A stretch of 31,890 nt of DNA from a virus. This document shows, piece after piece, positions 1 through 31,890 of the stretch. The first letter of the stretch is position 1; each line of letters starts with the position of its first letter. The DNA lies in IMG/VR virus record IMGVR_UViG_3300020192_000055, positions 1 to 31,890 of that record; one strand, given 5' to 3'. The notes below the pieces were generated by a model. It saw nothing but the letters and a program-made list of their open reading frames with translations. It did no database searches and had not been told where the DNA came from. The position numbers were made by a program, and so were the translations under genes.

Positions 1-10
1 GTAAAGCCAT
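1..10 (-). CDS. Start of next late gene (possibly major capsid), partial
   Basis: An ATG on the minus strand at 10-8 opens a frame reading Met-Ala-Leu before the window ends. It lies 30 bases beyond the stop of the scaffold-like gene; an AGGA stands upstream but at a long spacing. In T7-like phages the major capsid gene follows the scaffold gene, so capsid is the natural guess. Only three codons are visible, so identity rests on gene order alone. Confidence 0.3.
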
Positions 11-40
11 GATGTGTAATGTATCCTAAAGTGTGTTGTG

Positions 41-1069: not shown

Positions 1070-3085
1070 TTATTGGATACCTAAAGTTTCTAGTTTGTCT
1101 GCAATCGCAGCTTCACCACCATCGGTAGCTAGTTGCGCCTGTGCCATGTCTTGAGCGGGTTTACCGCCTGACTCTCCCATAGCTTGCATAAGCTGCTGTA
1201 TGTCGTCTGGTGATGGCTCACCTCCCATAGGTGGGGCAGAACCCATCGTAGGTGGGGCACCTCCCATCATGGGGTCGTTCTGTTTAGGCTCAGCAGGTGG
1301 CTTGATGAATCGCTCGATGTCGTCGAAACCAAATCTCTTAGCAAGGTCTTTCATAATTTCAGACCACTGCATCATCTGTGCCATCTCTGGGTTCTGCGAT
1401 ACCAGACCCACAAAGTCAAGACGCTTCTGTAACTCGTATTCTTTATCGGCAATATGACCCGCCCCTACTGGTTCAATGTCGAAGTCGTGATGCAGTTCCT
1501 CAACACCAACCTCCACGTACAGGTACTCACCCGGTTCAAAACCTGGAATACGAATAACCTCGTCTTCTGTGACAAACTGCTGACACATTCGGTACACCTT
1601 TTTAAGTGTTAGGTGCAGCGCTGTACCCTCAATGTGAGTGTGAACACCCCCTAGTCTGTTGCCCCCCGCGTCTCGCGTAGCTTGAACCTCTTGAGCCGTT
1701 ACCCGCTCACCCCCGCGCCCCTGTCCAACACCTATAAAGGCACCAGTACCAGTTACTTTGTCGATGGTCTGTTCTAGCAAACCGCTTTCTTGGTACGTCA
1801 CAGTAAACTGTTGGTTGTGTACAACAGGACGTAGGCTGGAATGGTCTGCTACTTCAATCAGCTTACCGGGTGCTGTGTATAGGTCTTCGGGGTTCAGCAC
1901 ACCGTCGTCTACAAATGTCCACATAGAATCGATTGACAACTCTAGATTATCTAGACGTTGGTTTGTGACAATTGAAAGCTCATGCAGCATACCCAACACT
2001 GGTTCGATAGCCCCTACACCGTATGTCTGGTGTGGCACAGCGATGTATGTGCCGACTACGAAGGGCTTGCCACCCCAGTATGGGTTATTCTCAAACTTGC
2101 CTACCTTGTTCCCCATGCACGTAATCACAACATCCTCGTAATAACCGCATGAAGTTGTAGCGTTACCCCAGAATTCAACAATCTCCACAAGGTCGCTAGG
2201 TTGCCACTGCATACCGTTGAAGTTTGCCAGTGTATTTTTGCGGTTATCTGACTCACCAGACGTACCAGTGTTCTTCGCTCTGACTACATCCTCAACTGTA
2301 AGGTGCGGGTAGAACCCAGTGTTGATAAGCCGGACAACTTCACCCTTAGTCTTGACCATGCGGCGTATAAAGTTAGCGCGGTTAACGTCGCACACCTCGT
2401 CCGGGTCAAAGAAGCAGTCGAACATAGATAGTGTTTCAAACTCAGTACCACTGTATATTTGCTTCTGAACTGTCTTAACCTGGAACTTGGGGCGCGTTGG
2501 CTTCTGTTTGTATGAGGATGTGCCACCTTCATCTGTCAGCGGGTACTCTACCTTTACGCGGCACTTGTGGGGTACAACTTCCTTGCGCCACGGTAGCGCT
2601 AGAACAGATGTGCCAGTGATGAGCAGTTGACGGGTGAACATATCCCAGTGGCTACGGAAGTTTGACTGCTTCAGCTTTGTTTTGAGAAACTTCTTGATTA
2701 CATCTGTAACTTCAGATGAGCCGCTGTACAATGGGGTGATGTCGAACCAGTCACGGTTAGGGAAGAATGCAGACTGTAGGTAACTGTTAATGGTTTCGAT
2801 GTTCTCAAACGCCTTACCAGTAGAAACCTTGTGTCGCCATGATGTGTTAGCATCCCCAACTGTGCGAGTAGCCAACCTACGGGCGTAATCTAACGCTTGG
2901 GGTGAGCCGTTATACACTGCCCAACACTCCATCCACACGTCCTCTTTCTCGCGTCTAGCATGACGGTATCGTGCGTACTCAGAATGCACGAACGCACCAA
3001 TTGCAGCCATGTCAATAGGCTCAGATTCGTCTCCCTCTTTGCCGAACCCAACGAAAGAGAAGTCTTTGTTTAGTTGCTCATCCAC
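1070..3085 (-). CDS. Portal (head-tail connector) protein
   Basis: A 671-residue protein immediately after the large terminase; its start overlaps the terminase stop by one base. Length and gene order match T7-like portal proteins, the dodecameric ring through which DNA is packaged. Portal-like features include the early segment with WRHKVSTGKAFENIETINSYL and the later GQGRGGERVTAQEVQATRDAGG, which corresponds to the 'ER.TA.EV..' segment common in podovirus portals. The last 80 residues are low complexity, rich in Met, Pro, Gly and Gln (MMGGAPPTMGSAPPMGGEP), and probably form a flexible tail. Late gene; assembly role is established knowledge for the family. Confidence 0.85.
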   Translation of the reverse strand: MDEQLNKDFSFVGFGKEGDESEPIDMAAIGAFVHSEYARYRHARREKEDVWMECWAVYNGSPQALDYARRLATRTVGDANTSWRHKVSTGKAFENIETINSYLQSAFFPNRDWFDITPLYSGSSEVTDVIKKFLKTKLKQSNFRSHWDMFTRQLLITGTSVLALPWRKEVVPHKCRVKVEYPLTDEGGTSSYKQKPTRPKFQVKTVQKQIYSGTEFETLSMFDCFFDPDEVCDVNRANFIRRMVKTKGEVVRLINTGFYPHLTVEDVVRAKNTGTSGESDNRKNTLANFNGMQWQPSDLVEIVEFWGNATTSCGYYEDVVITCMGNKVGKFENNPYWGGKPFVVGTYIAVPHQTYGVGAIEPVLGMLHELSIVTNQRLDNLELSIDSMWTFVDDGVLNPEDLYTAPGKLIEVADHSSLRPVVHNQQFTVTYQESGLLEQTIDKVTGTGAFIGVGQGRGGERVTAQEVQATRDAGGNRLGGVHTHIEGTALHLTLKKVYRMCQQFVTEDEVIRIPGFEPGEYLYVEVGVEELHHDFDIEPVGAGHIADKEYELQKRLDFVGLVSQNPEMAQMMQWSEIMKDLAKRFGFDDIERFIKPPAEPKQNDPMMGGAPPTMGSAPPMGGEPSPDDIQQLMQAMGESGGKPAQDMAQAQLATDGGEAAIADKLETLGIQ

Positions 3086-4785
3086 TAGCGTGTTCCCCCG
3101 TACTTCCTATTAATGGTGTATGTCTGGTTACGTCTACGTTTACCAGCTTCAAGCCTTGATTTTGTCGGTACACATATATGTACTAGCATTGCTATCGCGT
3201 CTATGATGTCATCCTTAGCTCCCTGTCTGGGGAAGAAGGCAATCTCCTCTTGCATCTGGCTACAGCTTGCCATCCATTGGATTAGGAACAGTTTGCGGTT
3301 AGTGAACAGTGGTTCTAGGAAGGTGTTAATACGCGCCTTCTTGTCACCCTCAGCTTTGTATTCCCGCAACGATAGCACACGCCGGGTAGAGAACTGTTGC
3401 TTGAACGCATACACTAGAGCCTTCCCTAGCTTCTCGCTGTCTATGTGGACTGTGTTCATATGCCACTTGTCCACAAGCTCATACGTGTTGTTGATGACCT
3501 CGTTAGGGCTGAACTTGCCGAACTTCAAATCAACTAGATACATATTCTTGTTTTCGTCAGCGCCACCAATCACTATTGCTGTGTTATCTGCTGTTTTCCG
3601 CTGTGAGATAGCAGGGTCAATGATGCAGAACAGCTTAACCCGTATGGGCTTGTTGTCTACAGTGATGTCCACAGTGCCATCCTCTTTTGAAATAATGCCA
3701 ACACTATGTATGTATGACAGGTAGGTAGGGTCTAACACCACTTCATCATCTGTCATGATGCTGTTGAGGTACTGACTCGCGAAGCGCCTCAAACCGTTGG
3801 GGAGCTTGAGCATACGCTTCTTAATGCGTTCAATTACAGGTTCGCTGAACCGCTCATCCCACAGCATACCGTCGCTTGAATCAACACCATTCTTATAGAT
3901 GTTCTTCTTGTAGACAGCGTACTCGTCTAGGTCATGCTTCCCAGTGAATAAGTCTTTCCGCTCTTCCTTCTCATCCTCGGATAAGTCTTCACCCGTGTAG
4001 ATACCGTAGATGTCTTTGTAGAAATACCGCGTACCTAGCATGATGAACTCACCACCTAGCGACGTAGCTTCATTGAACGGGTCAACTACTGATTCAACGT
4101 CCCCTACCCAGTTGATAATCTTAAGGAGCTTCTCTTCTGTGTCTGAGTTGTCGAATGAAACCAAGTCGTCAAATATGGCTAGGTCATAGTGGAACCCTGT
4201 AGCAGGAGAGCCTACCGAACTAGCAACCAGTGTCGGTTCCTTCATAATCTTTGTGCGAACGACTTGCAGAGCGTCTGCTTTCCAGACTACTTTCTTGTCC
4301 TCAGCCTCAGTGAACTCCTCTTCAAAGTTGTCGTCATCCCCTATGTTGCGCTTAGACTTTGCCTTACGCGCCTGCCCATCTAGTTTTGGGATAAGGTTAC
4401 CGCTCATGTGGGGTCTTGCATTCCACACCGTCGTCTGTAGTTCGTCGTCTTCAAAGTACTGTTTGACTTCGCGGACGAACGATGTAGCCAACGGTTTGGT
4501 TGCAGTGCCTACTAGGATACGGATGTCGGGGTTCTGGTAGATACGCCATAACACCAGTGCTACAGAACATAGTGTAGACTTAAGGTGCCCCCGTGGCATG
4601 AGAATCAACCGACGAGGGGTTATTGTGTTCTCTGCTACAAAAGCGGCTAGCTCTTTGTGGCAATCGCCGAACTGACTGGTGCCACCCTTGAAGTTAATCA
4701 AGTCCAAGAACGCCCAAAAGTCGGTAACAGCCGCAACTTTTAGGCGATGATGTAGTGCGCGGTCTTTACTTGATAGTGTTACCAT
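3085..4785 (-). CDS. Terminase large subunit
   Basis: A 566-residue DNA packaging motor of T7 gp19 type. The ATPase has a Walker A variant, MPRGHLKST, at residues 63-71 and a Walker B stretch DLAIFDDLVSF near 203-213. The C-terminal RNase H-like nuclease domain shows CIIDPAIS near 388 and AKDDIIDAIAML near 522-533, supplying the expected acidic residues. It cuts concatemers and pumps DNA into the prohead through the portal encoded next. The start overlaps the end of the upstream membrane-protein gene by 20 bases, which suggests translational coupling. No small terminase subunit is recognisable nearby; the coiled-coil or Gln-rich proteins upstream could fill that role, but this is a guess. Confidence 0.93.
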   Translation of the reverse strand: MVTLSSKDRALHHRLKVAAVTDFWAFLDLINFKGGTSQFGDCHKELAAFVAENTITPRRLILMPRGHLKSTLCSVALVLWRIYQNPDIRILVGTATKPLATSFVREVKQYFEDDELQTTVWNARPHMSGNLIPKLDGQARKAKSKRNIGDDDNFEEEFTEAEDKKVVWKADALQVVRTKIMKEPTLVASSVGSPATGFHYDLAIFDDLVSFDNSDTEEKLLKIINWVGDVESVVDPFNEATSLGGEFIMLGTRYFYKDIYGIYTGEDLSEDEKEERKDLFTGKHDLDEYAVYKKNIYKNGVDSSDGMLWDERFSEPVIERIKKRMLKLPNGLRRFASQYLNSIMTDDEVVLDPTYLSYIHSVGIISKEDGTVDITVDNKPIRVKLFCIIDPAISQRKTADNTAIVIGGADENKNMYLVDLKFGKFSPNEVINNTYELVDKWHMNTVHIDSEKLGKALVYAFKQQFSTRRVLSLREYKAEGDKKARINTFLEPLFTNRKLFLIQWMASCSQMQEEIAFFPRQGAKDDIIDAIAMLVHICVPTKSRLEAGKRRRNQTYTINRKYGGTR

Positions 4786-6353: not shown

Positions 6354-6878
6354 CTAGTTTTGTGTAAAGAAATGTGCCCAGACACCGTTCTCATCGCATA
6401 GTCGGTTGAACGTAGCGATGGTTAAATCGTAGCCACTGCCCGTGTTGTTAGTCTTGTAGCCAGTGCTGAACCATTCCCCATAGGGGTCATGCAAGTGTAC
6501 GTGTGTAGCGGAGTACCCAACTAACACCACAATATGCCCAACGCGGGTAAAGTAACCGTGAACAATAACAGGGTTTCCATTGTCTATAGAATCTCGAATA
6601 TCTTGGAGTGTGGCGTGTGGGTTGAACACACCCACAACCGAAGGGGATAGCTTAGCGCCGTAGACGTTAGCAATCAGTTCAATGTCGGAAGGGCTACCAC
6701 GGTTCAATCGCTTTGCTTTCTGGTAGGTCGATAGTTGGTCTTCAAGCTGACCCCGACCATTCCCTTTAAGACCGTAGAACGACAACACCATAGCAAGAGA
6801 TGTCATGTTACAGGTGTCATACGGGTCGGTAAGGTTATCAAGCTGACCAAACAGCGGTACGTTTTTGACAAGTTTCAT
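6354..6878 (-). CDS. C39-like papain-fold cysteine peptidase (lysis or virion)
   Basis: A 174-residue single-domain protein of the C39-like family. The catalytic triad is readable: Cys23 in DTCNMTSLAMVLSFYG, His115 in GHIVVLVGY, and Asp131 in HDPYGEW. C39-family enzymes cut peptide bonds; in phages such domains may open peptidoglycan cross-links or process proteins. It has no signal peptide. It is the first gene of the leftward late transcript and lies near two holin-like proteins, so an endolysin role is attractive; no amidase or lysozyme was found elsewhere in the window. I chose the ATG at 6878; a TTG nine codons earlier is possible and neither start has a good ribosome binding site. Confidence 0.75.
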   Translation of the reverse strand: MKLVKNVPLFGQLDNLTDPYDTCNMTSLAMVLSFYGLKGNGRGQLEDQLSTYQKAKRLNRGSPSDIELIANVYGAKLSPSVVGVFNPHATLQDIRDSIDNGNPVIVHGYFTRVGHIVVLVGYSATHVHLHDPYGEWFSTGYKTNNTGSGYDLTIATFNRLCDENGVWAHFFTQN

Positions 6879-6982
6879 AGGTGGTGTGGTGTAGTGGGTA
6901 CACAACTTACTAGCTGTGAGTAGTGTGTTTTGAAAGGTGAGCTATAAGAAATTATGAGGATTACTAATCAAGCCGAAGGCGC

Positions 6983-6997
6983 GTGAGCGAAGCTCAC
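6983..6997. repeat. Perfect hairpin with GAA loop
   Basis: GTGAGC, loop GAA, GCTCAC: six perfect pairs with a three-base loop. No T-run follows in either direction, so it is not a terminator by itself. It lies at the start of a GC-rich stretch (6971-7070) with other small symmetric elements such as CTCGCGAG at 7016-7023, and could be part of a structured RNA ending at the terminator at 7161. Confidence 0.5.
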
Positions 6998-7129
6998 TCG
7001 TCGAAACGAAGCGTACTCGCGAGATTGAGACAGTAGGCAGGGCGGCGAACCTAAACCGCAGTCACGGGGGTTATATGATAGTTGGATTGCGCGTCGGCTT
7101 CATTCTGCTCCAGTTATGGTTGTGTTGGG

Positions 7130-7161
7130 TAGCCCTAGGTTTTTAGGGTTATTTTTTTTTT
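7130..7161 (+). terminator. Intrinsic terminator, rightward
   Basis: Stem TAGCCCTA / TAGGGTTA (eight pairs, one of them G-T) around the loop GGTTTT, followed directly by ten T on the plus strand. This is a classic Rho-independent terminator for rightward transcription. No rightward gene precedes it, so it either ends a short RNA starting around 6930-7000 or blocks antisense transcription that comes from the late region. Confidence 0.75.
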
Positions 7162-7174
7162 GGGTTACAGTTTT

Positions 7175-14335: not shown

Positions 14336-14506
14336 ATGAAGACTTGCACAACTTGCAACACCATTAAAGACATCAAAGACTTCTACCAGTACTGCCTTCA
14401 AGGTGTACCAGGTGCTGTGTTCGACACTTGCATCCCGTGTATCCTGAAGTATGACGGGTTCTATGATGCTTACAATGCAGAAGCAGAAGGTACACGGCAT
14501 GGGTAA
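14336..14506 (+). CDS. Small zinc-ribbon protein
   Basis: A 56-residue protein with two Cys pairs, CTTC near residues 4-7 and CIPC near 32-35, spaced as in a treble-clef zinc finger (C..C ... FY ... C..C). The same pattern begins many phage endonuclease VII-like and HNH proteins, but no catalytic His-Asn follows, so this is a finger alone. The ribosome binding site is poor. Its stop overlaps the proposed primase start by eight bases. Confidence 0.55.
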   Translation: MKTCTTCNTIKDIKDFYQYCLQGVPGAVFDTCIPCILKYDGFYDAYNAEAEGTRHG

Positions 14507-16394: not shown

Positions 16395-16557
16395 CGATAA
16401 GATTATCCGGTCGAAGAGTACCTATGGGATGTGGTGTGAGAGACATGACATACCCTATGCTATCGGTGTCACCATTCCACATGAATGGATAGACCCCACC
16501 AGTTCATACAAAAGTGTGCTAGAGTTATGGAAGTTAAACAAAAGGAGATGGCTATGA
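16108..16557 (+). CDS. Endonuclease I (T7 gp3-like Holliday junction resolvase)
   Basis: A 149-residue PD-(D/E)XK nuclease that resolves branched DNA and in T7 also degrades host DNA. The active residues line up with T7 gp3: Glu22 in SPHEQE, Asp54 in YNPDLLLPNG, Glu64 and Lys66 in LVELKG, against E20, D55, E65 and K67. The later part STYGMWCERHDIPYA also matches T7. I chose the ATG at 16108 because GAGGGT precedes it and the numbering then fits T7; an ATG at 16090 has no such site. The first 287 bases lie inside the helicase reading frame, an unusually long overlap. The stop overlaps the next start (ATGA). Confidence 0.92.
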   Translation: MVRKARAQLEMVQGKRFRSPHEQEVWNTNLLSAKGVLYEAVKTSYILKKTYNPDLLLPNGILVELKGLLSKENRTTILAAKDQHKNYPLVLLFRSNDKIIRSKSTYGMWCERHDIPYAIGVTIPHEWIDPTSSYKSVLELWKLNKRRWL

Positions 16558-16739: not shown

Positions 16740-17007
16740 AAGTGTACTCGATAGCCTGTTGCGTTACGTTGGTCTTGTCCGTCTCAGTGAGCATATCTGG
16801 GAAACTGAGAAGTGCCACCAAGAGCACAGCAAAGCATTGAACAAGCTTTACTTTCAGAGTAGAGGTATCGAATTACTGCGAGAAGTGGAACAACTACAAG
16901 CCGATAAGATTGCTCACCTTGAGGCAGTCATCACTGAGGTTCGTGGTGTTGTGTCTCCCTCTTTAATTCCAATGACCACTGTGTCTGGTTTCGTACAACC
17001 TAACTAG
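16726..17007 (+). CDS. 93-residue helical protein, unknown
   Basis: A helical protein (MMPLESVLDSLLRYVGL, then GIELLREVEQLQADKIAHLEAVI) whose middle looks like a coiled coil. It starts 14 bases inside the preceding gene, with GGAG eight bases before the first ATG, and ends nine bases before the DNA polymerase. Its position between endonuclease and polymerase suggests a replication accessory role, not provable here. Confidence 0.6.
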   Translation: MMPLESVLDSLLRYVGLVRLSEHIWETEKCHQEHSKALNKLYFQSRGIELLREVEQLQADKIAHLEAVITEVRGVVSPSLIPMTTVSGFVQPN

Positions 17008-20542: not shown

Positions 20543-20905
20543 ATGGAAACTTGCCTCAATAGTTTTGATGAGGACGTAGCCATAGACGTTGGCTACGTCG
20601 TGGTTGAAAGAGCAGACCAAGTAGTCATACTAACGTATGGTGCTGTGTCAGTTGAGACGGCGGTTGATGATTACTCTTACGCTACTGGTATACTTGCAGA
20701 TTGGTTTGCTGAGAGTTACACTGGGTTCGTTCAGACTAGCGCTATTGCTACACGTCTGAACATGCCCAAGACTCACACCTATATAAAGGGCGCAACAGTT
20801 ATAGCTCTCGCGCCCTTCTACCACGTTGCCACAACTAGAACACTAGAGTATCTGTTAACGGAATGTATTAACCCATTTGTACTAGAGGTTGAACCACATG
20901 ACTAA
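20543..20905 (+). CDS. 120-residue protein, unknown
   Basis: An acidic protein with alternating strands and helices (VAIDVGYVVVERADQVVILTYG, then ATGILADWF and a later ATVIALAPFYHVA). No motif recognised. It starts five bases after the SSB-like stop and overlaps the next gene by eight bases, so it belongs to the recombination and nucleotide gene group by position. It might be a partner of the diphosphohydrolase-like protein that follows. Confidence 0.65.
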   Translation: METCLNSFDEDVAIDVGYVVVERADQVVILTYGAVSVETAVDDYSYATGILADWFAESYTGFVQTSAIATRLNMPKTHTYIKGATVIALAPFYHVATTRTLEYLLTECINPFVLEVEPHD

Positions 20906-21230
20906 GTTAATTGCTGAGCTTGTTGGTAAAGATGTGGAGACCGAGACTAATGAAGCGGGTGGCTCACAGTCTAAACTATCGGCTAGGTTTGATTTGATTC
21001 CTGCTGTGCCGTTGTTTGCTGTAGCAGTTGTGCTAGGTGAGGGTGCTAAAAAGTATGGTATCGATAACTGGAAACTCATCTGTACCAATGACCATCTGTC
21101 TCACGCACTGGCTCACATCTTTGCTTACCTAGCGGGTGACCGTAGCGATAGCCATCTGTCACACGCAGTCTGCCGTGTTCTGTTTGCCGCATACACATCA
21201 ACCAAGGAAGACGATGAATACAGCGATTGA
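20898..21230 (+). CDS. dATP/dGTP diphosphohydrolase-like protein (DUF5664 type)
   Basis: A 110-residue protein matching the DUF5664 pattern: GGSQSKLSARFDLIPAVPL, then VLGEGAKKYGIDNW, DHLSHALAHIFAYLAGD and HLSHAVCRVLFAAY. This family, named for dATP/dGTP diphosphohydrolases, is linked to nucleotide pool control and in some phages to 2-aminoadenine (Z) DNA. No PurZ or DatZ gene is visible in this window. I chose the ATG at 20898 since GAGG lies ten bases before it; the frame also opens with a TTG three codons earlier. The following gene starts inside its end. Confidence 0.75.
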   Translation: MTKLIAELVGKDVETETNEAGGSQSKLSARFDLIPAVPLFAVAVVLGEGAKKYGIDNWKLICTNDHLSHALAHIFAYLAGDRSDSHLSHAVCRVLFAAYTSTKEDDEYSD

Positions 21231-22095
21231 TTCCATACGCGCACTGTTAAACTCAGAGTCGATGTGTTCTGTGTTACCCACCCCCACAGTTAAAGGTCTA
21301 GCGAGTGACTACGGTAAACTTGTAGCCGCTTCAGCACTCAAACAATTCACTGACTACGAAAACGACATGAAGCACGGCGGGTTACGGTTGTCCTCTTTGG
21401 GTAAACCTGCTGTGCTACAGGCTATTGAACTCCCTGCTGTACGTGATGAGTTGATAGAGTGTGGTGTGTACCAAGAAGAGGGGGACGTAAGTTCTAGACT
21501 ACGCGAGTTGTTTCATAGGGGTGACCAATACGAAGCGCTAGTTATGTTTGTGTTGCAACTGCACGGGTACAAGATAATCTCAACGCAAGAGACTGTATCG
21601 TTTATGGGAGTACCCGGTCATACAGACGCTATCATTGAGACACCGTCTGGCGACCAACTGCTAATCGAAGTAAAGACAATGAGTGACTATTACTATAATC
21701 AGTTCGTCAAGTATCAGAATGATGACAGAGGTTACATAACACAACTAGCCACCTATGCTTACTGCACATCCAAGACACCAGTGTGGGTATGCCTGAACAA
21801 GGGCAACCATGAAGTGGCTGTGATTGAACCAGTACCCGAACAACTAGACCGTGCGTTGGAGAGGGCTAGGGTTATCATCCCCATCCTAACCGACAAGATT
21901 AGTTGTGTTGACGACATATTCGATAACCTCAAAGCACCGCCCGGTGTGGAGGAGGTGTACCGCAAACACAAAACGGACAAGTTTCTGTTAGCGCAGTCAA
22001 TCAAGTACAGCCCATACAGGAGTATGTTCTATGAGTTAGTCACAGAACCAAACGGTTACGGTAAGGACACTGAGTACATAATAGATATTAAATAG
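21214..22095 (+). CDS. PD-(D/E)XK exonuclease (Cas4/RecB-like)
   Basis: A 293-residue nuclease. The core is GHTDAII with Asp138, LLIEVKTM with Glu152 and Lys154, and the Gln177-x-x-x-Tyr181 helix (QLATY) that is typical of the RecB and Cas4 group. It probably resects DNA ends to make single strands for ERF annealing, and may degrade host DNA. AAGGAAGACG precedes the chosen ATG at 21214; an earlier ATG at 21136 lies inside the upstream gene without a site. Last gene of operon 2; its stop overlaps the end of the convergent tail fibre gene by eight bases. Confidence 0.85.
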   Translation: MNTAIDSIRALLNSESMCSVLPTPTVKGLASDYGKLVAASALKQFTDYENDMKHGGLRLSSLGKPAVLQAIELPAVRDELIECGVYQEEGDVSSRLRELFHRGDQYEALVMFVLQLHGYKIISTQETVSFMGVPGHTDAIIETPSGDQLLIEVKTMSDYYYNQFVKYQNDDRGYITQLATYAYCTSKTPVWVCLNKGNHEVAVIEPVPEQLDRALERARVIIPILTDKISCVDDIFDNLKAPPGVEEVYRKHKTDKFLLAQSIKYSPYRSMFYELVTEPNGYGKDTEYIIDIK

Positions 22096-23188
22096 TGTTC
22101 TCAAACTCTACAGCCGTAATAGAAGATACGCATAGCACCTCCCCGTTGGTGTTAACCCCCGCATTACGGAGTTCAATCTTTAGTGTGAACGCATCCGCTG
22201 TGCCCGGTGTATATACGCCCATTAACATCGCTGTAACAAAAGTAGCACCACTTAAAAACACTTGACTAATGTCTGTGGTGCCTGCTACCACACGTATAAT
22301 CGAACCAGTAACAGTTGGCAATACCTGGACACCCGCGATAACAAGAAACGATGTTGTAGCATTGCGTGGTGTGAGAGATGGTGATGTGTACGCTACCACA
22401 AACGTAACCAAGGAAGCTGTAGTAAACGATGTGTTCCACTGGAAGTTAGTAACCCTCTTAGCAACACTAGCGACATGACCGAACGCAGTAGATGCTAAGG
22501 TTGTGTCGTTAACTGTCTTTGCCGCTGTTGGGTACGTTGTGTTCTGTAGTGCCTTAAGTTCTGCACTGGTTAGGAAACCTCTCACACCTGCTGTTGTCTG
22601 TAGTTGTGTAGAGTTTGATGTCGTTGCGGGGGTTGGGGCTGTCGGTACGCCTGTTAGGGTTGGGCTAGCAAGCGGTGCGTACGTAGCAAGAGATGTGTTG
22701 ATTACTGCATCAGCAGCTATATAAGCCGCAACCACAGATTGTATCTTGTCATACACAGCTTGACGTGTTGGGGCAAAGATAGTGTCTGTTGCCCATGCAA
22801 TACCATACGCGCTGTTACTTGGTACACCAGTAACATCCCCAATAGACCCGATACCGAACGACTCATACTCAGCGGCACGTCGGGACACGCGGTTAATTTC
22901 ACGGTTCCACACTGCACTGCTGAACCTCTCACCATACAACACAACGCTAGCAGGGTCAATAGGTGTACGCCGTCTAAGCTGCACGGTAGTCGTGCCGATT
23001 GACGAACCGTCATACCTCACTGACACCGCTGACAGTTTTGTAAAAGATGTGTTTGGTTGAACGACAGCACCAAACAGAATAACGAAGTCCTTAAGTAGTG
23101 TATCCGGGTCAAGGTTTGCCAGTGTGGTGTCGATAGTCCACCCTGTACCAGACCTTGATTGAATAATAGCAACAGTTAGAAAGCTCAT
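22088..23188 (-). CDS. Tail fibre protein (T7 gp17-type N-terminus)
   Basis: A 366-residue receptor-binding protein. The first 100 residues match the T7 tail fibre N-terminal domain that docks on the tail: YDGSSIGTTTVQLRRRTPID then WNREINRVSRRAAEYESFG. The middle carries a phage tail repeat (YAPLASPTLTGVPTAPTP). The C-terminal 130 residues are Thr/Val/Ala-rich strands, likely a trimeric beta head that touches the cell. It is short compared with T7 gp17 (553), so a second adhesin may exist. Start overlaps the preceding stop as ATGA. Confidence 0.8.
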   Translation of the reverse strand: MSFLTVAIIQSRSGTGWTIDTTLANLDPDTLLKDFVILFGAVVQPNTSFTKLSAVSVRYDGSSIGTTTVQLRRRTPIDPASVVLYGERFSSAVWNREINRVSRRAAEYESFGIGSIGDVTGVPSNSAYGIAWATDTIFAPTRQAVYDKIQSVVAAYIAADAVINTSLATYAPLASPTLTGVPTAPTPATTSNSTQLQTTAGVRGFLTSAELKALQNTTYPTAAKTVNDTTLASTAFGHVASVAKRVTNFQWNTSFTTASLVTFVVAYTSPSLTPRNATTSFLVIAGVQVLPTVTGSIIRVVAGTTDISQVFLSGATFVTAMLMGVYTPGTADAFTLKIELRNAGVNTNGEVLCVSSITAVEFENTI

Positions 23189-26100
23189 TTTTTGAACGTC
23201 TCAATAAATAAATTAATCTTCTCTAAATCTTTCTCACGTTTGCGACGTTGCGATTGTGTCATCGCGCCGCGTTCAGTGAGCCATGTCTTGCTGTCTAGTC
23301 TACCAAGTTCAATCTCAGCGGCAAGGGCTTGGGTTGTGATGATGGTATCGGTAAGTTCCTTACGCCTAGGGTTACCCGGTTCCATCTCCTTTACTGCTTT
23401 CTCTAGCTTCTTGCTGTAGGTCTTCATGTCAGCCACCGCTTGCTTCAGCTTATCCTCAGTGAACCCCATACCTTTAACAGTGTCAACACTATTAACGGTT
23501 ACACCTGTGAGGCGTAGTGCTGTCACTAAGGCGTTGTTTGTTAGGTCATCATTAGAAGCATCGTTGTCGCTACGCGCGGCACCTGCCCAGCTTGGCTTAG
23601 CTGCGCGTGTGATGTTGCCCCTTCCGTCCTTATCTTCCTTAACCCCAAACTGTTGTAGAGGGTTGAGCTTGTTGAGGTTGGACAAACTGGGTAGTGTGTT
23701 CTCAATCAGGTACTTAACCAGTGGCGCGTGTTTACCGGGTATAGGTATACCTACAAAAGATGTCTGCTCCGTGTCATCATTGACTAGAGACTTACCTGTT
23801 CTAGGGTCTTTGCGCGTGGCTATTGCGTACAGTGCTTTGATAGAGCCGTACCCCCCAGTCACTAGCCCATCAACGAAAGGTATGGTGTCACTCTTGGGAC
23901 TCACTTGTTTAAGGTCTTCGTTGTACGAGCCGGGGAACAATCCAAACATCTGACCCAAACCGTTAGCGCCGTCTTCAAAGGAGTTAAGCGCGTCGGCTAT
24001 AGGGTCGAACGATGTGAACGGCACATGAACAAACTTGTTAGGGTCACCGGATGGGTGCTTAGAGTAGATGTGCCCCTGTCCCTGTTGGTAGTCTTGGAAC
24101 CCACCTACTGGTGCTTCTTCCCCTGCTTCCCTCACGTCTTGGTTCATCAAACTGTTGATACGTTGGTACGCCATGTACTGTCTGGGGTTTCTCAATACGT
24201 GTCGCACCACAGCAGGGGCGTTGCGTGACATATAAGTCCAGAACGGTATGTAGTTCTTGGACAGTAACCTGTCACCTAAACCTGTATTGCTGTAGTCAAA
24301 GAAGTAATCCGAGGCATGGGTAACAGCTTCATCAATGTCTGTGAAGTTAACCCGCCTCGTTGCTGTGACGAACTGACCGATTGCATTAAGCCCACCGTCT
24401 CTCATCACTGAGCGGTAGTGTGCAAGCTTAGCCATCTGTTCAAGCTGTGAACCTACAGACATCAGGTATCCCGACGCTTCATCTGTCATACGTTCAGCTA
24501 ACTCAGCACCGTACTGCACAGCATCCCATCTGAGAGAACCGTTACGGATTACAGGGAGTATGCCGCGCCCTTGGATGACAGTACCCCAGTACCCGATTGC
24601 TCGTGCCGCATTTCGCGGGTCTAGTGCGTTGAACATCTCGCTAGACTTCTTAGCAATCTCCCCTACAATAGGTGCTGTAGGGGTGGAGATGGCACCACGC
24701 TTTACTAACTCAGCCATCAACTCACGCTCTGTAAACTGCCCACCACCGTACACTTTTTTAGTGTTGTCTAGCGCCTCGAACCCTAGCTTCTTGTACTTGA
24801 TGTAGTCAGCCATAGCGGGTATGATGTTTGCTAGGTTCGTACCAGACATAGCCGAACTGATGAACAACTGGTACACCTGTCTACCTACAAACCCAGTGGT
24901 AGCTAGCGCCTGTTTCTTAAACATCCTGTTAGCGTACTGCCATACAGCCGCAAGTGTAGACAACTGTGCCGGGTCAGTGGCTACCTCAAGTATACCCGTA
25001 TACATATTTGCCACCATTGGGTTGATGTAGATGTCTTCAGCGCCCGGTATGTTCGCGATACCATAGTTCTTGTATACTTCAGGACTGAACTTCACATACT
25101 TACCATACAGTTCTGGTTGTGCATTCTTAGCCGCTGCGCTAACACCCCATCCTGTCTCGATAGCATTAGCAAACATAGCCTGAGACATAGCAGACTTACC
25201 CATCAACGTCTTGAGTTGGTCAGTGATGACACGGTATGCCAGACGGGGGTCAGTAACTAGCAACTCGTCAATGCCCTTGTATGGTAGTTTGTATCGCTTG
25301 ACCATGTAGTTGTATAGTGTCTCATTCTGCATGGGGAGTTTGCCCAACACACCACTATCTACTAGAGCATCTAGCGTACTGTCTGTTAGTGTGTTCAGTT
25401 CTGTAATCAGTGTTCGTTCATTGGTCAGCAACTTCGATAGTTTCTCTGTTGCCTCGTCACTGATAGACTTGAGTGTTGCTTGCGCCTCAAACAGTGCTAC
25501 CTCTGTGTCCCCTACTGTACCCAGTTCTTTCTGCCATGATGTAATGCGACTGTTTAGTTTAGTAGACTCACCCGCTAGTTCATCACGCATACGCTGGATG
25601 GACTTCATGTTATTAGTTAGAGTGTTGACCTCGTTGGGTTGTGCTTCCTTCAGTGCTGACTTGATGAATGTAAGCGCGTTGTCCGCCTCTACTAACTTTG
25701 CCTTGAGTTCTACCGACTTAGCAATTGCTTCAGGTAGGTCAACATCACGCGCCTTGATGATACGGTCAAGCGTCTTCTGTTTAGTGCGTACTGTGTTGCG
25801 TAGCTGCTTTGCTGAGCGGTCACCCTCAACGAACCCGAACGCCGACGCGAGAATCAGTTCGTCGTTAACCAGATACTCATGAGTTTTTCTAGACTGCTGA
25901 AACGCCGCGCCTAAACCCTTGGCACTAGACTCAAGGTAGCCCCCGTAGGCATCGGCTTTTTCTCTACCTAACCTGAACCTAGCATCGGCAGACAACACAC
26001 GGTTCATGTAGCCCATGTCTTGGAGTGCAGCTACATCCACACCCGCATTGTTAGCGAATGCCCATAAGTCATCATAGGCATCTGTGACGTTGGCTACTGG

Positions 26101-26781
26101 TGCGCGTAGAAGCTCTGCGCTTTCACGGGGTATACCGAACGACTCAGATAGTTCATAGAACTTCTCTAGTCTGTGTTCAAGAATACGTTTACCGTTGTCC
26201 CCAGATTGTGTCATTCGCATGATACGGTCATGCTGAGACACCTGAACAGCATCACCCCACAGTCTACCAATGTCGGACTGACTAAGGTCTAGGTTGTTGT
26301 TCTTTAGGACTAGAACGAACTCTCCATATGCGTTGTCGATAACCTCAGCAGAACCCATCTTAGCCAACACTTCATTAACTGTGCCAGCATAGTAAGGCAT
26401 GGTTTCCCATAGGTTCTCACCCTTCGCCTTAGCGTTGGTCAGTATGTTGCGTACCTGCTTAACCTGAGATTTGTCACTCAAGAAACTAGGGAACATCCTA
26501 GCCATCCACTGCTGGAAGTTCTTAGCACCATCACCGGGTCTAAGGTGTACCTTCGCAGCCATCTCAGACTCCCAACTGTTGCGCCTGATAACCTCAGACA
26601 GCATCTCTTGTGTTTCAACAGTACCCGCGAACCTGTTCAGGTCTACCTCAGATGCTAGAGCAATACGTTTCATCAGTTCAAAGTTAACCCGAACTGCATC
26701 AGGAATTTCAAGCTCTGACACATCCACCTTAGTGATTACTGGTGGTACTGTTGGTTCAAACGAACACTCAATCTTTTTCAT
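23185..26781 (-). CDS. Large internal virion protein
   Basis: A 1198-residue protein of the T7 gp15/gp16 position. It has a long coiled-coil region about residues 325-480, a helical middle, and the motif YIPFWTYMSRNAPAVVRHVLRNPRQYMAY near 846-874, which matches a segment of many podovirus internal or ejection proteins ('PF.TW...N.P......NP'). These proteins are stored in the head and form the channel that carries DNA through the envelope. A lytic transglycosylase motif, seen in T7 gp16, is not recognised here. Start and stop overlap both neighbours by ATGA. Confidence 0.75.
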   Translation of the reverse strand: MKKIECSFEPTVPPVITKVDVSELEIPDAVRVNFELMKRIALASEVDLNRFAGTVETQEMLSEVIRRNSWESEMAAKVHLRPGDGAKNFQQWMARMFPSFLSDKSQVKQVRNILTNAKAKGENLWETMPYYAGTVNEVLAKMGSAEVIDNAYGEFVLVLKNNNLDLSQSDIGRLWGDAVQVSQHDRIMRMTQSGDNGKRILEHRLEKFYELSESFGIPRESAELLRAPVANVTDAYDDLWAFANNAGVDVAALQDMGYMNRVLSADARFRLGREKADAYGGYLESSAKGLGAAFQQSRKTHEYLVNDELILASAFGFVEGDRSAKQLRNTVRTKQKTLDRIIKARDVDLPEAIAKSVELKAKLVEADNALTFIKSALKEAQPNEVNTLTNNMKSIQRMRDELAGESTKLNSRITSWQKELGTVGDTEVALFEAQATLKSISDEATEKLSKLLTNERTLITELNTLTDSTLDALVDSGVLGKLPMQNETLYNYMVKRYKLPYKGIDELLVTDPRLAYRVITDQLKTLMGKSAMSQAMFANAIETGWGVSAAAKNAQPELYGKYVKFSPEVYKNYGIANIPGAEDIYINPMVANMYTGILEVATDPAQLSTLAAVWQYANRMFKKQALATTGFVGRQVYQLFISSAMSGTNLANIIPAMADYIKYKKLGFEALDNTKKVYGGGQFTERELMAELVKRGAISTPTAPIVGEIAKKSSEMFNALDPRNAARAIGYWGTVIQGRGILPVIRNGSLRWDAVQYGAELAERMTDEASGYLMSVGSQLEQMAKLAHYRSVMRDGGLNAIGQFVTATRRVNFTDIDEAVTHASDYFFDYSNTGLGDRLLSKNYIPFWTYMSRNAPAVVRHVLRNPRQYMAYQRINSLMNQDVREAGEEAPVGGFQDYQQGQGHIYSKHPSGDPNKFVHVPFTSFDPIADALNSFEDGANGLGQMFGLFPGSYNEDLKQVSPKSDTIPFVDGLVTGGYGSIKALYAIATRKDPRTGKSLVNDDTEQTSFVGIPIPGKHAPLVKYLIENTLPSLSNLNKLNPLQQFGVKEDKDGRGNITRAAKPSWAGAARSDNDASNDDLTNNALVTALRLTGVTVNSVDTVKGMGFTEDKLKQAVADMKTYSKKLEKAVKEMEPGNPRRKELTDTIITTQALAAEIELGRLDSKTWLTERGAMTQSQRRKREKDLEKINLFIETFKK

Positions 26782-29700
26782 AAACAGCCGGGGTACTCTG
26801 TAATATCGATAGCGTCAATCGTGACAGTGTATTCTTTAGCGCCTTCGCTCAATCTACGCTCTGCATCTAATCTCTTCTGTGCTGTAACTGTAGCTTCTAG
26901 TGCATCGTCTGCTTCTAACATACGGGTGATAGCGTTGTCCGCTTTGTCTAGTGACCCCTCAACCAGTTCATCAGAACGTGAGAGTAGGTCAGCACCTAGT
27001 GCAACCTTAGCGTCTAGTGCCGCAACCGTAGACGTAACATCTAGCGTGATGCCTTGATGGTACAGCGCTTGGTTCATAGCACCCGCAGCTTGTTCTAGTT
27101 GTGAACCTGTACCGACTTTCGTCTTAGCTAACTCCGTCACCTTGTCAGTCTTGAACACAACTAATGTGTCACCTTCATCTGTCGTGTGTTTGATAGAATC
27201 AAAGCCTAGGTTCTCAAGTCTAGTCTGAACGTTTAACTCAAACTGTCTGAACATATCTTCAGGCATAGTCTCAGTGGGGTTAACCTTAGCGTACGAAGCG
27301 GACAGCTTGTTCCATTGGTCTGCAACCTTAGACTTAATTTGTGTACCGTCTTTCATCTTCTTAGTTACAGACAGCCTACGCTTGAATGACTTGATAACTT
27401 CCTCGTCAAAGCCAGCTTCCACCGCAGCTTGTGTAAACAAACTCTTAATTTCTGGGGTGCTGTCTAGGTTAGCGTCTAGTGTCTTGGTTACGTTGGGGAC
27501 TACCTCTCTCACAACACCTATCTCATCTATAGGTGTGTTGTTTAGTGGCACGTTATCTGTGAGCCTAGCCTTAGCTGCATCTGTCGCACGTTCAGGGTTA
27601 GTGTGGAAGTAACTACCCAAGCCTAGAGGATTCCGCGTTGGCATCGTGTCAACAGCAGACGGTAGTTGTGGTGTGTCAAACTTCGTACCGTGGTAGAAGG
27701 ACGAGACATCCCCACCTGCGTATGCGTAACCTGTCTTCAGTGCGCTGTCTGCAATCTCTGCTGTGTTTGCTGCGATGTCATCATTCAGTTTCCTAAGGTC
27801 GCCTATAGACTCGCTGATACCCTTTAGTTTATTGGTTGCATTCTCCATAGACTGCACGAGTTTAGACTTCTGAGCGGGTATGGGTACATCCCTAACAACG
27901 TCTTCGGGTTGTAGGGCGTTTACCGCTATCTTGGGAGTGTTAGGGGTTGCGGTGGGTAGTGGTACGTCTCTAACAAGGTCGTCTGCTTGTAGTGTGTTTA
28001 CAAACTTAGCCGCGTCACGCTTCTGTTTTTTGATGTCTCGTTGGTTTCTCTTACTCCCTGTTGGGGCAGGTGTCTCTTGCTTCCACACCTGAATGCGTTG
28101 CAGAAGGTCATCTTCATCTGTGTACTTAAGACCAAACTCATCAGCTTGTCTTAGATAGTCAGCTTCCCATTCACCCGTGGCTTTGAGAGCGTCTATCCTG
28201 GGAGTGTTAGCAGTTACCTTCTTAGGTGTTTCGTCAACACCACCTAACGCTGGCTTCTTCTTAACACCAAACACTTCTCCTATCTCACCCTTGCCGTAGT
28301 CCAGAGCAACCAGAGATTCAATGTTGCGCTTAATCACTGCCTCTTCAGCAAGCCTAGCCGCTAATACCTTAGAGTCTGGTACACCTAATTCTATTAGGGA
28401 CTGCTCATACAGCGCCGCGCGTTGAAGGTCAGCCTCAACGATAGACTTAGCGGCACCTTTAAGGTTAGTCTCCATACCAGACAGAGCCGTCTCTACTTGC
28501 TCGTCTATAGCGTTGATGTCGATGCCGAACTCATCAGCCGTCGTTAATGGTTTGACTACACCTAGCACACGCTCATTGAGTAGACCCTTATCATACGAAC
28601 CTACGTCCAGCGCAGCGGGTTCAACACGAGGCATCGTGTCAAGCTTAGCCATGTCTGCATCAATGGCTTTGCTAAGTAATACTGATTCTGCTGTGTACGA
28701 ACGGGCGCGTGTCATCTCTTCAGCAAGAGCAATCTCTGTCTGCTGTACAACCGCCGCTTGTTGTTTTGCCGCTTGCGTGGTGGGCTTCTTGCTGTCTGGG
28801 AGTGTTGCCTCAAACTGTTTGTATGGTTTAGTGCCTAGCGCCTGTCTAGCGTACAACTGTTCAAGCTCACTCTCTATATCTTGGGCACGAACGTCAAGGT
28901 CTGCTAGGGTGTCAGCATCAACGTCTGGGTCTAGTTCGTTCGCCTGTTCGTAGAGAGAGTTAAGCTCACCCTCTAAATCTGCTACTCTGTTATCTTCAAC
29001 CAGCGGAGCTACGTTAGGGGTAGAAGGCGCGGCTACCTCGTCTGGTATGCGGTTAATCACAACAGACTCTTGTGCCGCTCCTGACGCTGCTACGGCTTGC
29101 TTAGTTTCAACACGCACAACCCCAGTCTTAGCGTACTGCTTAAGCTTATTGACATCAAGCGGGTGCCCTACGTTGGCGTAGATGCTACCATGTACTAACC
29201 GTAGGTCGTCTAGTTCGTCACTGGTTATCTTACTTCTACCCTTATGGTGTCCTAAGAACCTAGCAAGCTCTGATAGGTCACTGGTGGTACGTTGAACGAA
29301 CTCAGCCGTGGATGTGTACACAGCATCACCCGGCTTGAGGTTTTTGATTGACTCATACAGCAGTGATGGGGCAGTAGCGGGTGCGAACGTATCCATAGGG
29401 ATGACAGGTATCGCGTCATCAACAAGCTTAGCGTTCAGCGGTTCATCTACCGCAGTCACACCCGCAGATACTACACGCTGTGCTTCTGCTATCTCTTTTT
29501 GAATCAGAGCCACTTGCTCTTGCAGTAGCGGTTTTTTATTGTAGTTAGGTTTCGCTCTTACCCCGTCTTCTCGAATACGCAACCGTGTGATTGCGCGTTC
29601 TGCTTCTTCAACAGCGTCGCTACCCTTCTTGATTACACCCGTCTCAGGGTTAACTACGATAGCCTTTACTCGTTCAGCTTCCGCTAGGATAGCAGGACTA

Positions 29701-31890
29701 GCTGCGGGGTCACGTAACAGACGTGCTGAAGCGTCACTTATCTCCCCCGCTTCTACTTCCTTGCTAATAACTTTAAGCGATGCTACCATTGGGGAATCAA
29801 CTGGTTCACCACGCGCCGCCCTTGCAGCTAGCACCTGCGCTAAGTTACTTGACGGTTTGGTTGATACAACCTTACCAGTAGATTTTGGAGGTGTTGACAA
29901 AGACGGGGGTGACTGTGTTAGTGTTGTGTTATCAGGAAACTGCTCGTCAATTAAATCTGCTATACGTTCGGACTGCTCACCATTTGCAGCATTGAACTTA
30001 GCAAGCTCTTCCGGTGTTTGGTACTTGTTACCAACACGGTCAGCTTCATTAAACAAGTCATCTAAAGGATTAACCGACAATGAAGAATCTACTGGTAAAT
30101 TTGGCGGTGGTGTTTGTTGTGTTACATTCGGTTGCCCCTGTAGCAAAGGGCTACTACCGGGTACTACAGGGTCTACCTTTCCAGGAGGTTCAGGTATTCC
30201 CGTCGAAGACAACCCCGTATACTGAGGAAGAGGAGCCTGTTGACGAGCGCCAGTGCCGCTACTGCTAGGGTCAATGGCTTTAGGTAGTAACTCTGGTAGA
30301 GTTATGGGGACTTCGTAGTCTTTAAGTTGCAGGTCTGGTAGGGGTGCATCTGGTTCTAGTTTGGGTAGCGCAATCCCTTGTAGTGGTGTACCTACAGCAC
30401 CTTTAGGGTACAGTTGTTCTAGTTTTGTGCCCATTAACTCCACACCTTTCTCACCTTTAGGTAGCAAATCTGGGAGCTTGCTAGCGTTAGTCAGTGGGTT
30501 AGGGTCTAAGTCAAGCATAGGCTTGTTGCGGAACAGTTGAGGAACCACCTGACCTAGTAGTTCTTCTCCAAACACAACCTGCGGTACTGCTGTAGGTCTT
30601 CGCGATGCAATGTTAAACACCTTAGACCCACCGTCTTTCACTATAGACTGTAGTTCTGGTAGAGGTGGGAGTAGGTTAACCTTCCCCCTAAGCTCAGGCA
30701 AAGGTGGTGTAGGTTGTAGTGATGTGATACGGGGGCGTAGGTCGCTTAGCACCTTCTTATCTGTGAGCGGTGGTAGCGCAACACCTAACAAAGGGGTGCC
30801 ATCTTTTACTGGTTCACTGAACTTAGACTCTAGTTTGGGTAACGGTACAGCCTCACCTAGTTTAGCAAACTCATTGTTACGGATGATTGAAGCCGCAACT
30901 TCAGCGGACGTGCTAGTCCTAACACTTCTAACATCAGTACCCGAACCACTTGGTTTGATAGGCTTGGTAGGTGTTGGTATTTGTACTGGTACTGGTGGAG
31001 TACCCTTTGGGTTTTTACGCGCTTCTACACGTGCTTTAGTTGCAGCTTTCCGCGCTGACTTTAGAATCTCTTCAGTTGTCTTGGGTCTAACGATGTCAAT
31101 CAGTGGGTTATCTAAACCCTTGATTGCTGAGCGCATTACCTCACTGGCTCTTGACGGGCGCAAAGACTTTATCGCTGTGTCTTTGGCAGTCTTCACTGCT
31201 CCTTTGCGTAAACCAGAGACAGCGGCTTTGCGTAGCGCGTTGAACGGGTTAACATCTGTTATGACCTCTAACGCCATACCACCAGCAAACGCACCCCAGA
31301 AATCGCCACCCTTTTTATCTTTACCCGTAACGTTCAGTGGGCTACCGGGGTCAACAAAACTAAATGACTTACCCCCAAGACCTTGCCCAAGACCATTCCA
31401 TTGCCACGGCTCACCTTTCTTTGCTCTCTCTTGGTTTAGTCTGATGTCTTGGATAGTACCCCTAACGACAGCGTTTCCTCCGAGCAGGTTGTCCATACCG
31501 TAGTTCAGCGCACCGACTAAACCAGTACCGTAATCCCCGAACGTAGCTTTACCAAGGTTTGTACGTTCGTTAGTAGGAGCTAACCCCTGAAGCACGGCAC
31601 TCTCGTTAGGAGCTAGCGGTCGCTTATCAAAGTCAAACGCACCTTTCAAACCTTTATTGTAGGTTTCCTTCTTGCGCGGACTGAAGTCACCACTGGCTAG
31701 CTTCTTAGCATCTGCTACTGTATCTTCAACAGCGGCAGAACCCAACCTCCCAACGAAACCCGCTAGACCACCTAGTTGTTCTAGTACGTTCCAACCACCC
31801 TTCTTACCACCCCCTAACGCGCCCGGTGTACCGTCCACAACGTTCTGCGTAGGGTCAATGTTAAACCCCCTGTCATTCAGCTTCTTCTTC
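26778..31890 (-). CDS. Giant internal virion protein with ART-like domain, 5' end outside window
   Basis: The frame is open to the right edge of the window without a stop, so the true start lies beyond; the first GTG in view (31838) has no ribosome site and is unlikely to be the start. At least 1700 residues are coded. The order is: Gly/Lys-rich start with hydrophobic patches (GDFWGAFAGGMALEVITDV), a Pro/Leu-rich repeat region (about 30280-30850) with GTPLLGVALPPL and GTPLQGIALPKL, long charged coiled coils, and a C-terminal region (about 27110-27715) with FYHGT, GLGSYFHTNPERA and LGFDSIKHT...TLVVF. That last set resembles ADP-ribosyltransferase domains of phage polyvalent proteins. Ejected into the cell with the DNA, by analogy with T4 Alt. 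Confidence 0.7.
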   Translation of the reverse strand, partial: KKKLNDRGFNIDPTQNVVDGTPGALGGGKKGGWNVLEQLGGLAGFVGRLGSAAVEDTVADAKKLASGDFSPRKKETYNKGLKGAFDFDKRPLAPNESAVLQGLAPTNERTNLGKATFGDYGTGLVGALNYGMDNLLGGNAVVRGTIQDIRLNQERAKKGEPWQWNGLGQGLGGKSFSFVDPGSPLNVTGKDKKGGDFWGAFAGGMALEVITDVNPFNALRKAAVSGLRKGAVKTAKDTAIKSLRPSRASEVMRSAIKGLDNPLIDIVRPKTTEEILKSARKAATKARVEARKNPKGTPPVPVQIPTPTKPIKPSGSGTDVRSVRTSTSAEVAASIIRNNEFAKLGEAVPLPKLESKFSEPVKDGTPLLGVALPPLTDKKVLSDLRPRITSLQPTPPLPELRGKVNLLPPLPELQSIVKDGGSKVFNIASRRPTAVPQVVFGEELLGQVVPQLFRNKPMLDLDPNPLTNASKLPDLLPKGEKGVELMGTKLEQLYPKGAVGTPLQGIALPKLEPDAPLPDLQLKDYEVPITLPELLPKAIDPSSSGTGARQQAPLPQYTGLSSTGIPEPPGKVDPVVPGSSPLLQGQPNVTQQTPPPNLPVDSSLSVNPLDDLFNEADRVGNKYQTPEELAKFNAANGEQSERIADLIDEQFPDNTTLTQSPPSLSTPPKSTGKVVSTKPSSNLAQVLAARAARGEPVDSPMVASLKVISKEVEAGEISDASARLLRDPAASPAILAEAERVKAIVVNPETGVIKKGSDAVEEAERAITRLRIREDGVRAKPNYNKKPLLQEQVALIQKEIAEAQRVVSAGVTAVDEPLNAKLVDDAIPVIPMDTFAPATAPSLLYESIKNLKPGDAVYTSTAEFVQRTTSDLSELARFLGHHKGRSKITSDELDDLRLVHGSIYANVGHPLDVNKLKQYAKTGVVRVETKQAVAASGAAQESVVINRIPDEVAAPSTPNVAPLVEDNRVADLEGELNSLYEQANELDPDVDADTLADLDVRAQDIESELEQLYARQALGTKPYKQFEATLPDSKKPTTQAAKQQAAVVQQTEIALAEEMTRARSYTAESVLLSKAIDADMAKLDTMPRVEPAALDVGSYDKGLLNERVLGVVKPLTTADEFGIDINAIDEQVETALSGMETNLKGAAKSIVEADLQRAALYEQSLIELGVPDSKVLAARLAEEAVIKRNIESLVALDYGKGEIGEVFGVKKKPALGGVDETPKKVTANTPRIDALKATGEWEADYLRQADEFGLKYTDEDDLLQRIQVWKQETPAPTGSKRNQRDIKKQKRDAAKFVNTLQADDLVRDVPLPTATPNTPKIAVNALQPEDVVRDVPIPAQKSKLVQSMENATNKLKGISESIGDLRKLNDDIAANTAEIADSALKTGYAYAGGDVSSFYHGTKFDTPQLPSAVDTMPTRNPLGLGSYFHTNPERATDAAKARLTDNVPLNNTPIDEIGVVREVVPNVTKTLDANLDSTPEIKSLFTQAAVEAGFDEEVIKSFKRRLSVTKKMKDGTQIKSKVADQWNKLSASYAKVNPTETMPEDMFRQFELNVQTRLENLGFDSIKHTTDEGDTLVVFKTDKVTELAKTKVGTGSQLEQAAGAMNQALYHQGITLDVTSTVAALDAKVALGADLLSRSDELVEGSLDKADNAITRMLEADDALEATVTAQKRLDAERRLSEGAKEYTVTIDAIDITEYPGCL

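Follow-up and report, generated by a model that had tools for sequence, protein, structure and literature searches.

Near-complete loss of restriction sites

The virus record IMGVR_UViG_3300020192_000055 from IMG/VR (positions 1 to 31,890, a stretch of 31,890 bases analysed whole and referred to here as the window) is by its gene content a 31.9 kb podovirus fragment, from a virus of freshwater cyanobacteria, and it lacks or nearly lacks a broad set of palindromic sites of the kind recognized by Type II restriction enzymes. Counter-selection of these sites on unmodified phage DNA is very probably the best explanation. The phage would inject unmodified DNA, and selection would have removed almost all targets of the Type II enzymes that it met; a genome gaining such a site would be cut before the lytic cycle is completed, so that site-avoiding synonymous codons would be retained, and where the code offers no synonym (Gly-Pro and Trp-Pro) the amino acid itself would be replaced. 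The phage encodes no recognized methyltransferase, and avoidance would be its strategy. The depletion is independent of protein sequence and codon usage, it continues to act, the avoided sites have been gained and lost repeatedly among relatives, and sites are retained beside a plausible methyltransferase. We infer that host endonucleases are the agent, and likewise which enzymes these might be.

Motifs were counted exactly on both strands and compared with two nulls. In the strict null, synonymous codons were shuffled across 37 genes (200 shuffles) with the proteins and the codon usage held fixed; the second was a second-order Markov expectation on the window. There is no GATC in the window, against 86.4 +/- 7.0 by codon shuffle (minimum of the 200 shuffles, 65) and 108 by the Markov model. 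GGCC (39.3 by shuffle, 41 by Markov), GGWCC (21.8, 41), CYCGRG (13.8, 13) and RCCGGY (19.1, 18) are also at zero, so the absence of these five motifs, which the initial annotation had reported, holds under both nulls. Its list was nevertheless too short. GGSCC is absent as well (11.5 by codon shuffle), and therefore the avoided unit is GGNCC (0 against 33.3), which is broader than the AvaII site GGWCC. Also overlooked were GRGCYC (0 against 16.0 by codon shuffle), GRCGYC (0 against 17.6), CAGCTG (0 against 12.4), CTGCAG and TTCGAA (each 0 against 8.4), RCATGY (1 against 18.4), GWGCWC (1 against 24.0) and CCWGG, which is down to one quarter (11 against 43.6). The sites concerned are as follows.

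1..31890, both strands: GATC, GGCC, GGNCC, CYCGRG, RCCGGY, GRGCYC, GRCGYC, TTCGAA, CAGCTG and CTGCAG, all absent
20760..20765: the sole RCATGY site, ACATGC
16822..16827: the sole GWGCWC site, GAGCAC

The effect is visible codon by codon. Ahead of a codon starting with C, Asp is written GAC 89 times and GAT never, while elsewhere the two are used 252 and 232 times; Gly is GGC in 0 of 59 cases ahead of such a codon and in 101 of 573 elsewhere.

A bias of composition, codon usage, replication or mutation could in principle remove words without any restriction, and AATT, TCGA, AGCT, TATA and ATAT are indeed moderately low, although each still has 39-116 copies in the coding set. Such a bias is very improbable as the cause. 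It does not yield exact zeros against codon shuffles, and the depletion stops at the limits of degenerate sites that resemble those of enzymes: GWGCWC and GRGCYC are gone while GKGCMC is kept (12 against 14), and CCWGG is low while CCSGG is not (28 against 22). CMGCKG, too, is at expectation (28 against 28). The control palindromes GTAC, GCGC, CGCG, CTAG, ACGT, TTAA, GTTAAC and GCTAGC reach or exceed the codon-shuffle expectation. Equal depletion of many unrelated palindromes is thus not seen, most controls being normal or high and a few moderately low. GTAC (172), ATGCAT (2) and GCTNAGC (16) are present as the initial annotation had said, and CATG (92) is common as well, but only outside RCATGY. 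The ATGCAT count compares with 4.4 by codon shuffle; in Nostocales phages it is 0 against 8-9.

Two broader candidates for the avoided unit were rejected: the full NspII site GDGCHC, since GKGCMC is at expectation, and CMGCKG, within which CAGCTG alone is missing. Several other 6-base words are significantly rare, namely the asymmetric words CTGGTC (1 against 18), GACGCA (0 against 13), GCACGC (0 against 13) and CCCACG, as well as ACTAGT (0 against 14); none of them was assigned to an enzyme.

Selection among relatives

Relatives among viral contigs were found with an alignment of the terminase large subunit (TerL); a single TerL sequence used as query gave none. Of the sequences found, the closest is IMG/VR contig 3300020596_000276 (L090/L166, hereafter L166), with about 89% nucleotide identity to the window. 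It avoids the same set, apart from a single GATC against 67 expected and a single RCCGGY against 13, and these two sites lie about 120 bases apart (17740 for RCCGGY and 17859 for GATC). The window and L166 differ by 871 synonymous changes. Each was placed singly on the window sequence, and the expectation was taken from random placement among synonymous changes of the same type. Changes that create avoided sites number 19 against 60 expected, while those that create nine control palindromes number 128 against 120. The avoidance is therefore selection that still acts between close relatives. A relic of a former host, no longer under selection, would fit the sister contig L010, which is also without GATC, GGCC and GGNCC; it would not fit the scarcity of new sites since the split from L166 while controls arise freely, nor the near-normal frequency of GGCC in the nearby lineages L011 and L013/L014, and we regard it as highly unlikely.

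A TerL tree that covers 50 relatives requires at least 8 switches between avoidance and tolerance for GATC, at least 9 for GGCC and at least 9 for GGNCC. The contigs L013 and L014, which are close to the window in this tree, are without GATC, yet their GGCC is normal. With such repeated switching within one family, replication machinery or composition is not expected as the cause, which is a further point against bias.

Methyltransferases and the sites that are kept

None of four Pfam methyltransferase families, PF05869 (Dam), PF01555, PF02086 and PF00145, was found in the window, a fragment that lacks about 10 kb of the genome, or in 46 related IMG/VR records and 7 Saffermanviridae-type genomes. 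A natural experiment with METHYLTRANSFERASES is offered by an unrelated clade of myophages, N1, A1, Elbi, Dfl-JY23, YongM and YongM2, whose hosts are Anabaena, Nostoc and Dolichospermum. Each of them has a homologue of the Dam-type gene of A1 and keeps GATC (194-255 against 216-252), and in all six GGNCC, CYCGRG, RCATGY and GDGCHC are at 0 and GRCGYC at 0-1. GGCC is kept (23-33 against 25-34) in the four that have a PF01555 methyltransferase, A1, Dfl-JY23, YongM and YongM2; in N1 and Elbi, which are without it, GGCC is 0 against 32 and 45. For YongM and YongM2 this had been predicted from their annotation, in which a methylase adjoins RusA, and the prediction was borne out (GGCC 23 against 31 and 33 against 34), with the gene confirmed. 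Sites are thus kept one by one with a plausibly protective methyltransferase, while other sites are still avoided, and the myophages can be treated as a natural experiment site by site. PaV-LD, which has a Dam-type gene, also keeps GATC.

The N4/N6 methyltransferase adjoining RusA (L165, 708-1592; homologues in L202, L203 and L204) tracks GGCC retention in 4/4 phages with it and 0/2 without, and is a candidate GGCC methyltransferase. It also tracks in part with RCCGGY retention in the six myophages. A genome scan with the C5 methyltransferase of N1 and A1 gave no cyanobacteria among its matches.

Conversely, it might be the methylated site that is selected against, with orphan host methyltransferases for GATC, GGCC and RCCGGY marking the DNA for a modification-dependent nuclease or disturbing regulation. 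Some of the avoided sites are indeed those that orphan methyltransferases of cyanobacteria modify (PMC7296061, PMC4390886). However, GATC or GGCC is kept in phages that themselves encode a Dam-type or N4/N6-type methyltransferase, which is the opposite of what this predicts, and the loss of GGNCC, CYCGRG, RCATGY and GRCGYC would be unexplained; we consider it improbable. Because of the myophage pattern we take the unmethylated site to be the target, provided that each methyltransferase is specific for the site expected of it, as we infer.

Several points weigh against this reading of unmodified DNA under restriction. The methyltransferase specificities are presumed ones, all six myophages with a Dam-type gene belong to a single clade, with PaV-LD as a second lineage, and the Dam matches of N1 and Elbi fall below the Pfam cut-off. 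CL131 keeps GATC with no Dam match and C5 matches only, and the Saffermanviridae-like CHP58 and L023 tolerate GATC without any recognized methyltransferase. Finally, GATC endonucleases were predicted in just 10/97 cyanobacterial genomes (PMC4390886), while 30/43 scored relatives of the window avoid GATC. The restriction pressure on unmodified DNA that the initial annotation had proposed is still well supported by the codon shuffles, the methyltransferase searches, the substitutions since L166, the TerL tree and the myophages.

The cyanophages that keep GATC carry HIP1, a repeat typical of cyanobacterial hosts (GCGATCGC), with 27-70 copies in every 50 kb, where about 0 are expected. These HIP1-rich phages are L008, L009, L198, L199, L201, L202, L203 and L204, and all but CL131 have a Dam-type gene. 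The repeat is not found in GATC avoiders and is few or absent in GATC-tolerant phages without a methyltransferase, a distribution that bears on models tying HIP1 to methylation.

Orphan methyltransferases and GATC

The scarcity of known GATC endonucleases is set against nearly universal GATC methyltransferases in cyanobacteria outside one group (PMC4390886). For Anabaena PCC 7120, a passage of PMC7296061 that cites Matveyev et al. (2001) lists orphan methyltransferases for GATC, GGCC, CGATCG and RCCGGY. The initial annotation had matched the missing sites to the enzymes of this strain. The sites are indeed absent, but DmtA, DmtB and DmtD are orphan methyltransferases there and so supply no cutting enzyme (PMC7296061). 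A-4L, a phage of Anabaena, has no GATC against 97 expected. Either GATC enzymes threaten phages much more frequently than the sequenced genomes would indicate, or the methyltransferases guard against nucleases that are not recognized as such. It is conceivable, and we put it forward as a speculation, that in filamentous cyanobacteria the orphan methyltransferases for GATC, GGCC and RCCGGY belong to unrecognized restriction activities as their protective partners, that phages treat these sites as lethal unless they carry a methyltransferase of their own, and that the pressure deletes two dipeptides from entire viral proteomes. The wide avoidance of GATC beside so few known GATC endonucleases makes the function of the orphan methyltransferases testable.

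Forbidden dipeptides

A Gly codon (GGN) directly before a Pro codon (CCN) necessarily yields GGNCC, and every spelling of Trp-Pro (TGG CCN) includes GGCC. With GGNCC lost Gly-Pro is therefore unencodable, and with GGCC lost so is Trp-Pro; a full enumeration for the nine main motifs gave no other forbidden dipeptide. Of all dipeptides in the window, Gly-Pro shows the strongest depletion (0 against 29.6, P about 1e-13), while the reverse order, Pro-Gly, occurs 22 times. Pooled over 14 GGNCC-free phages, Gly-Pro is 0 against 304 expected, with 288 Pro-Gly; in 17 GGNCC-tolerant phages it is 221 against 314. Likewise Trp-Pro is 0 against 68 in GGCC-poor phages, with 44 Pro-Trp, and 28 against 53 in tolerant phages. 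That the dipeptides are absent follows from the DNA; the absence demonstrates that changes of amino acid were accepted. Three positions of the window illustrate this, the columns of avoiders and tolerant relatives being compared as they stand.

1502..1507, minus strand: portal codons 527-528, Gly-Val; the column has Gly-Pro in 8/19 GGNCC-tolerant relatives and in 0/16 avoiders
1739..1744, minus strand: portal codons 448-449, Gly-Ala; Gly-Pro in some relatives
4396..4401, minus strand: TerL codons 129-130, Gly-Asn in the motif RPHxxG(P)L; Gly-Pro in 6 tolerant relatives

At portal codons 527-528 the residues found in the 16 avoiders include Gly-Val, Gly-Ala, Asp-Pro and Leu-Pro, and one residue of Gly-Pro is nearly always kept. 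At the RPHxxGPL position of TerL the window has GN, A-4L has GR, TR020 has GI and PP has GA. Since the code has no synonym, evasion at GGNCC bans Gly-Pro proteome-wide and evasion at GGCC bans Trp-Pro, and the protein-level price of immune evasion becomes countable in any phage.

Gene content and placement

To judge from its genes, the window appears to be a Saffermanviridae-like podovirus. Its TerL is approximately 41-46% identical to those of Saffermanviridae such as A-4L, PP, Pf-WMP3 and TR020; in alignment the identity is 44-46%, to these and to the TerL of the Mastigocladus phage CHP58. Its polymerase is 27-35% identical to those of Saffermanviridae members, and the portal and primase-helicase are matched by Pfam. 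The early genes lie on one strand and the late genes on the other, with the terminase before the portal in the late block and the tail fibre last, as in the A-4L annotation. The major capsid and tail-tube region falls outside the fragment. The genes are as follows.

1070..3085, minus strand: portal protein gene (SU10 portal/Head-tail_con; Pfam PF23899, E 5e-34, and PF12236)
3085..4785, minus strand: terminase large subunit, by identity to A-4L, PP, Pf-WMP3 and TR020
6354..6905, minus strand: C39-like peptidase gene
14451..16394, plus strand: DNA primase-helicase (Toprim and DnaB_C)
16090..16557, plus strand: endonuclease I, in another frame, overlapping the primase-helicase gene by 305 bases
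17016..18920, plus strand: family A DNA polymerase, 93% identical to that of L166
19648..20112, plus strand: Erf-like single-stranded DNA annealing protein (PHROG 155)
21136..22095, plus strand: Cas4-domain/RecE-like exonuclease (PHROG 1990)
22088..23188, minus strand: tail fibre protein (PHROG 22682)
23185..26781, minus strand: tail fibre/host-specificity protein, common to Saffermanviridae (PHROG 19395)
26778..31838, minus strand: large late protein of 1,686 amino acids at the position of the A-4L tail proteins, by open reading frame and gene order only

The overlap of endonuclease I with the primase-helicase (16090-16394) is in the +1 frame, and A-4L has the same layout with an overlap of 401 bases, despite the distance between these phages. 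The gap at 6905-7662, which separates the late block from the divergent early one, holds no convincing gene; its counterpart in A-4L is the genome-end region, so that the contig appears to join both ends.

The host

A Nostoc/Anabaena-type host, as proposed in the initial annotation, would have the avoided set reflect AvaI, AvaII and their relatives. CYCGRG, GGWCC, GATC, GGCC and RCCGGY are all absent, and the Anabaena phage A-4L is a member of the same family. Phages of Anabaena, Nostoc and Dolichospermum, however, have at most one copy each of GDGCHC, RCATGY, ATGCAT and TGCGCA, and in most of them the same is true of CMGCKG, while the window has GKGCMC and CMGCKG at expectation and a few ATGCAT and TGCGCA, and has lost most of its CCWGG instead. 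Beyond its own close relative, the nearest site profiles are those of Leptolyngbya phage Lbo402-yong5 and Arthronema phage TR020, and non-Nostocales phages were nearer in 962/1000 motif bootstraps with GATC and GGCC left out. The C39 peptidase points the same way: its closest phage relatives are in Lbo402-yong5 (44%) and TR020 (42%), and Nostocales phages are not among the matches listed. The Nostocales host is thus the less likely of the two, though it retains some plausibility, and the host is probably a non-Nostocales filamentous cyanobacterium of a Leptolyngbya- or Arthronema-like kind. Comparison of the window with plasmids at 28-base words gave no match.

Lbo402-yong5 has nearly the same avoided set as the window (GATC 0 against 261, TTCGAA 0 against 52) and no recognized methyltransferase. 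At the protein level the two have in common little beyond the polymerase, an exonuclease and the C39 peptidase; the phages being mostly unrelated, their near-identical profiles look convergent. In Lbo402-yong5 (L200) the C39-like peptidase frame, 44% identical to that of the window, is at 46948-47484 on the minus strand and is not so annotated. The profile of avoided sites may help to predict the hosts of uncultured cyanophages.

Comparison with known systems

Avoidance of restriction sites is an established strategy of phages (PMC6286503, PMC6346686). Rusinov et al. 2018 (PMC6286503) described it for prokaryotic viruses and found GATC below expectation in 46/46 phages with enzyme-bearing hosts; as in that study, palindromic Type II sites are counter-selected here in a double-stranded DNA phage. 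Unlike the cases described there, approximately ten sites are at or near zero together, and dipeptides are forbidden, whereas the term "amino acid" does not appear in the main text of that paper. In Staphylococcus Rosenblumvirus phages such as phiAGO1.3 and 44AHJD, GGNCC is absent and GATC nearly so, as the main anti-restriction strategy (PMC6346686), and 44AHJD, like the window, has no Gly-Pro. These phages are unrelated to the window, avoid fewer sites and are AT-rich, so that only 6 GGNCC are expected. PMC10140849 cites a 1993 paper whose title concerns the resistance of cyanophage LPP-3 DNA to restriction enzymes. In the open-access literature text that we searched, we found neither this breadth of avoided set, nor a link between methyltransferases and individual sites in cyanophages, nor forbidden dipeptides, and no effect of restriction on Gly-Pro or any other dipeptide.

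Among cyanophages, N1, A1, Elbi, YongM, YongM2 and Dfl-JY23 resemble the window in having GGNCC and CYCGRG at 0, GRCGYC at 0-1 and RCATGY at 0 (1 in the window), and are unlike it in their methyltransferases, in keeping GATC and, in four of them, GGCC, and in having many copies of HIP1. A-4L and TR020 share with the window the gene order and the TerL family, and GATC, GGCC, GGNCC, CYCGRG, GRGCYC and GRCGYC are all at 0. A-4L differs in being without CMGCKG, ATGCAT, TGCGCA and every form of GDGCHC as well, and in having some RCCGGY left, and TR020 in that it keeps RCATGY (26 against 47).

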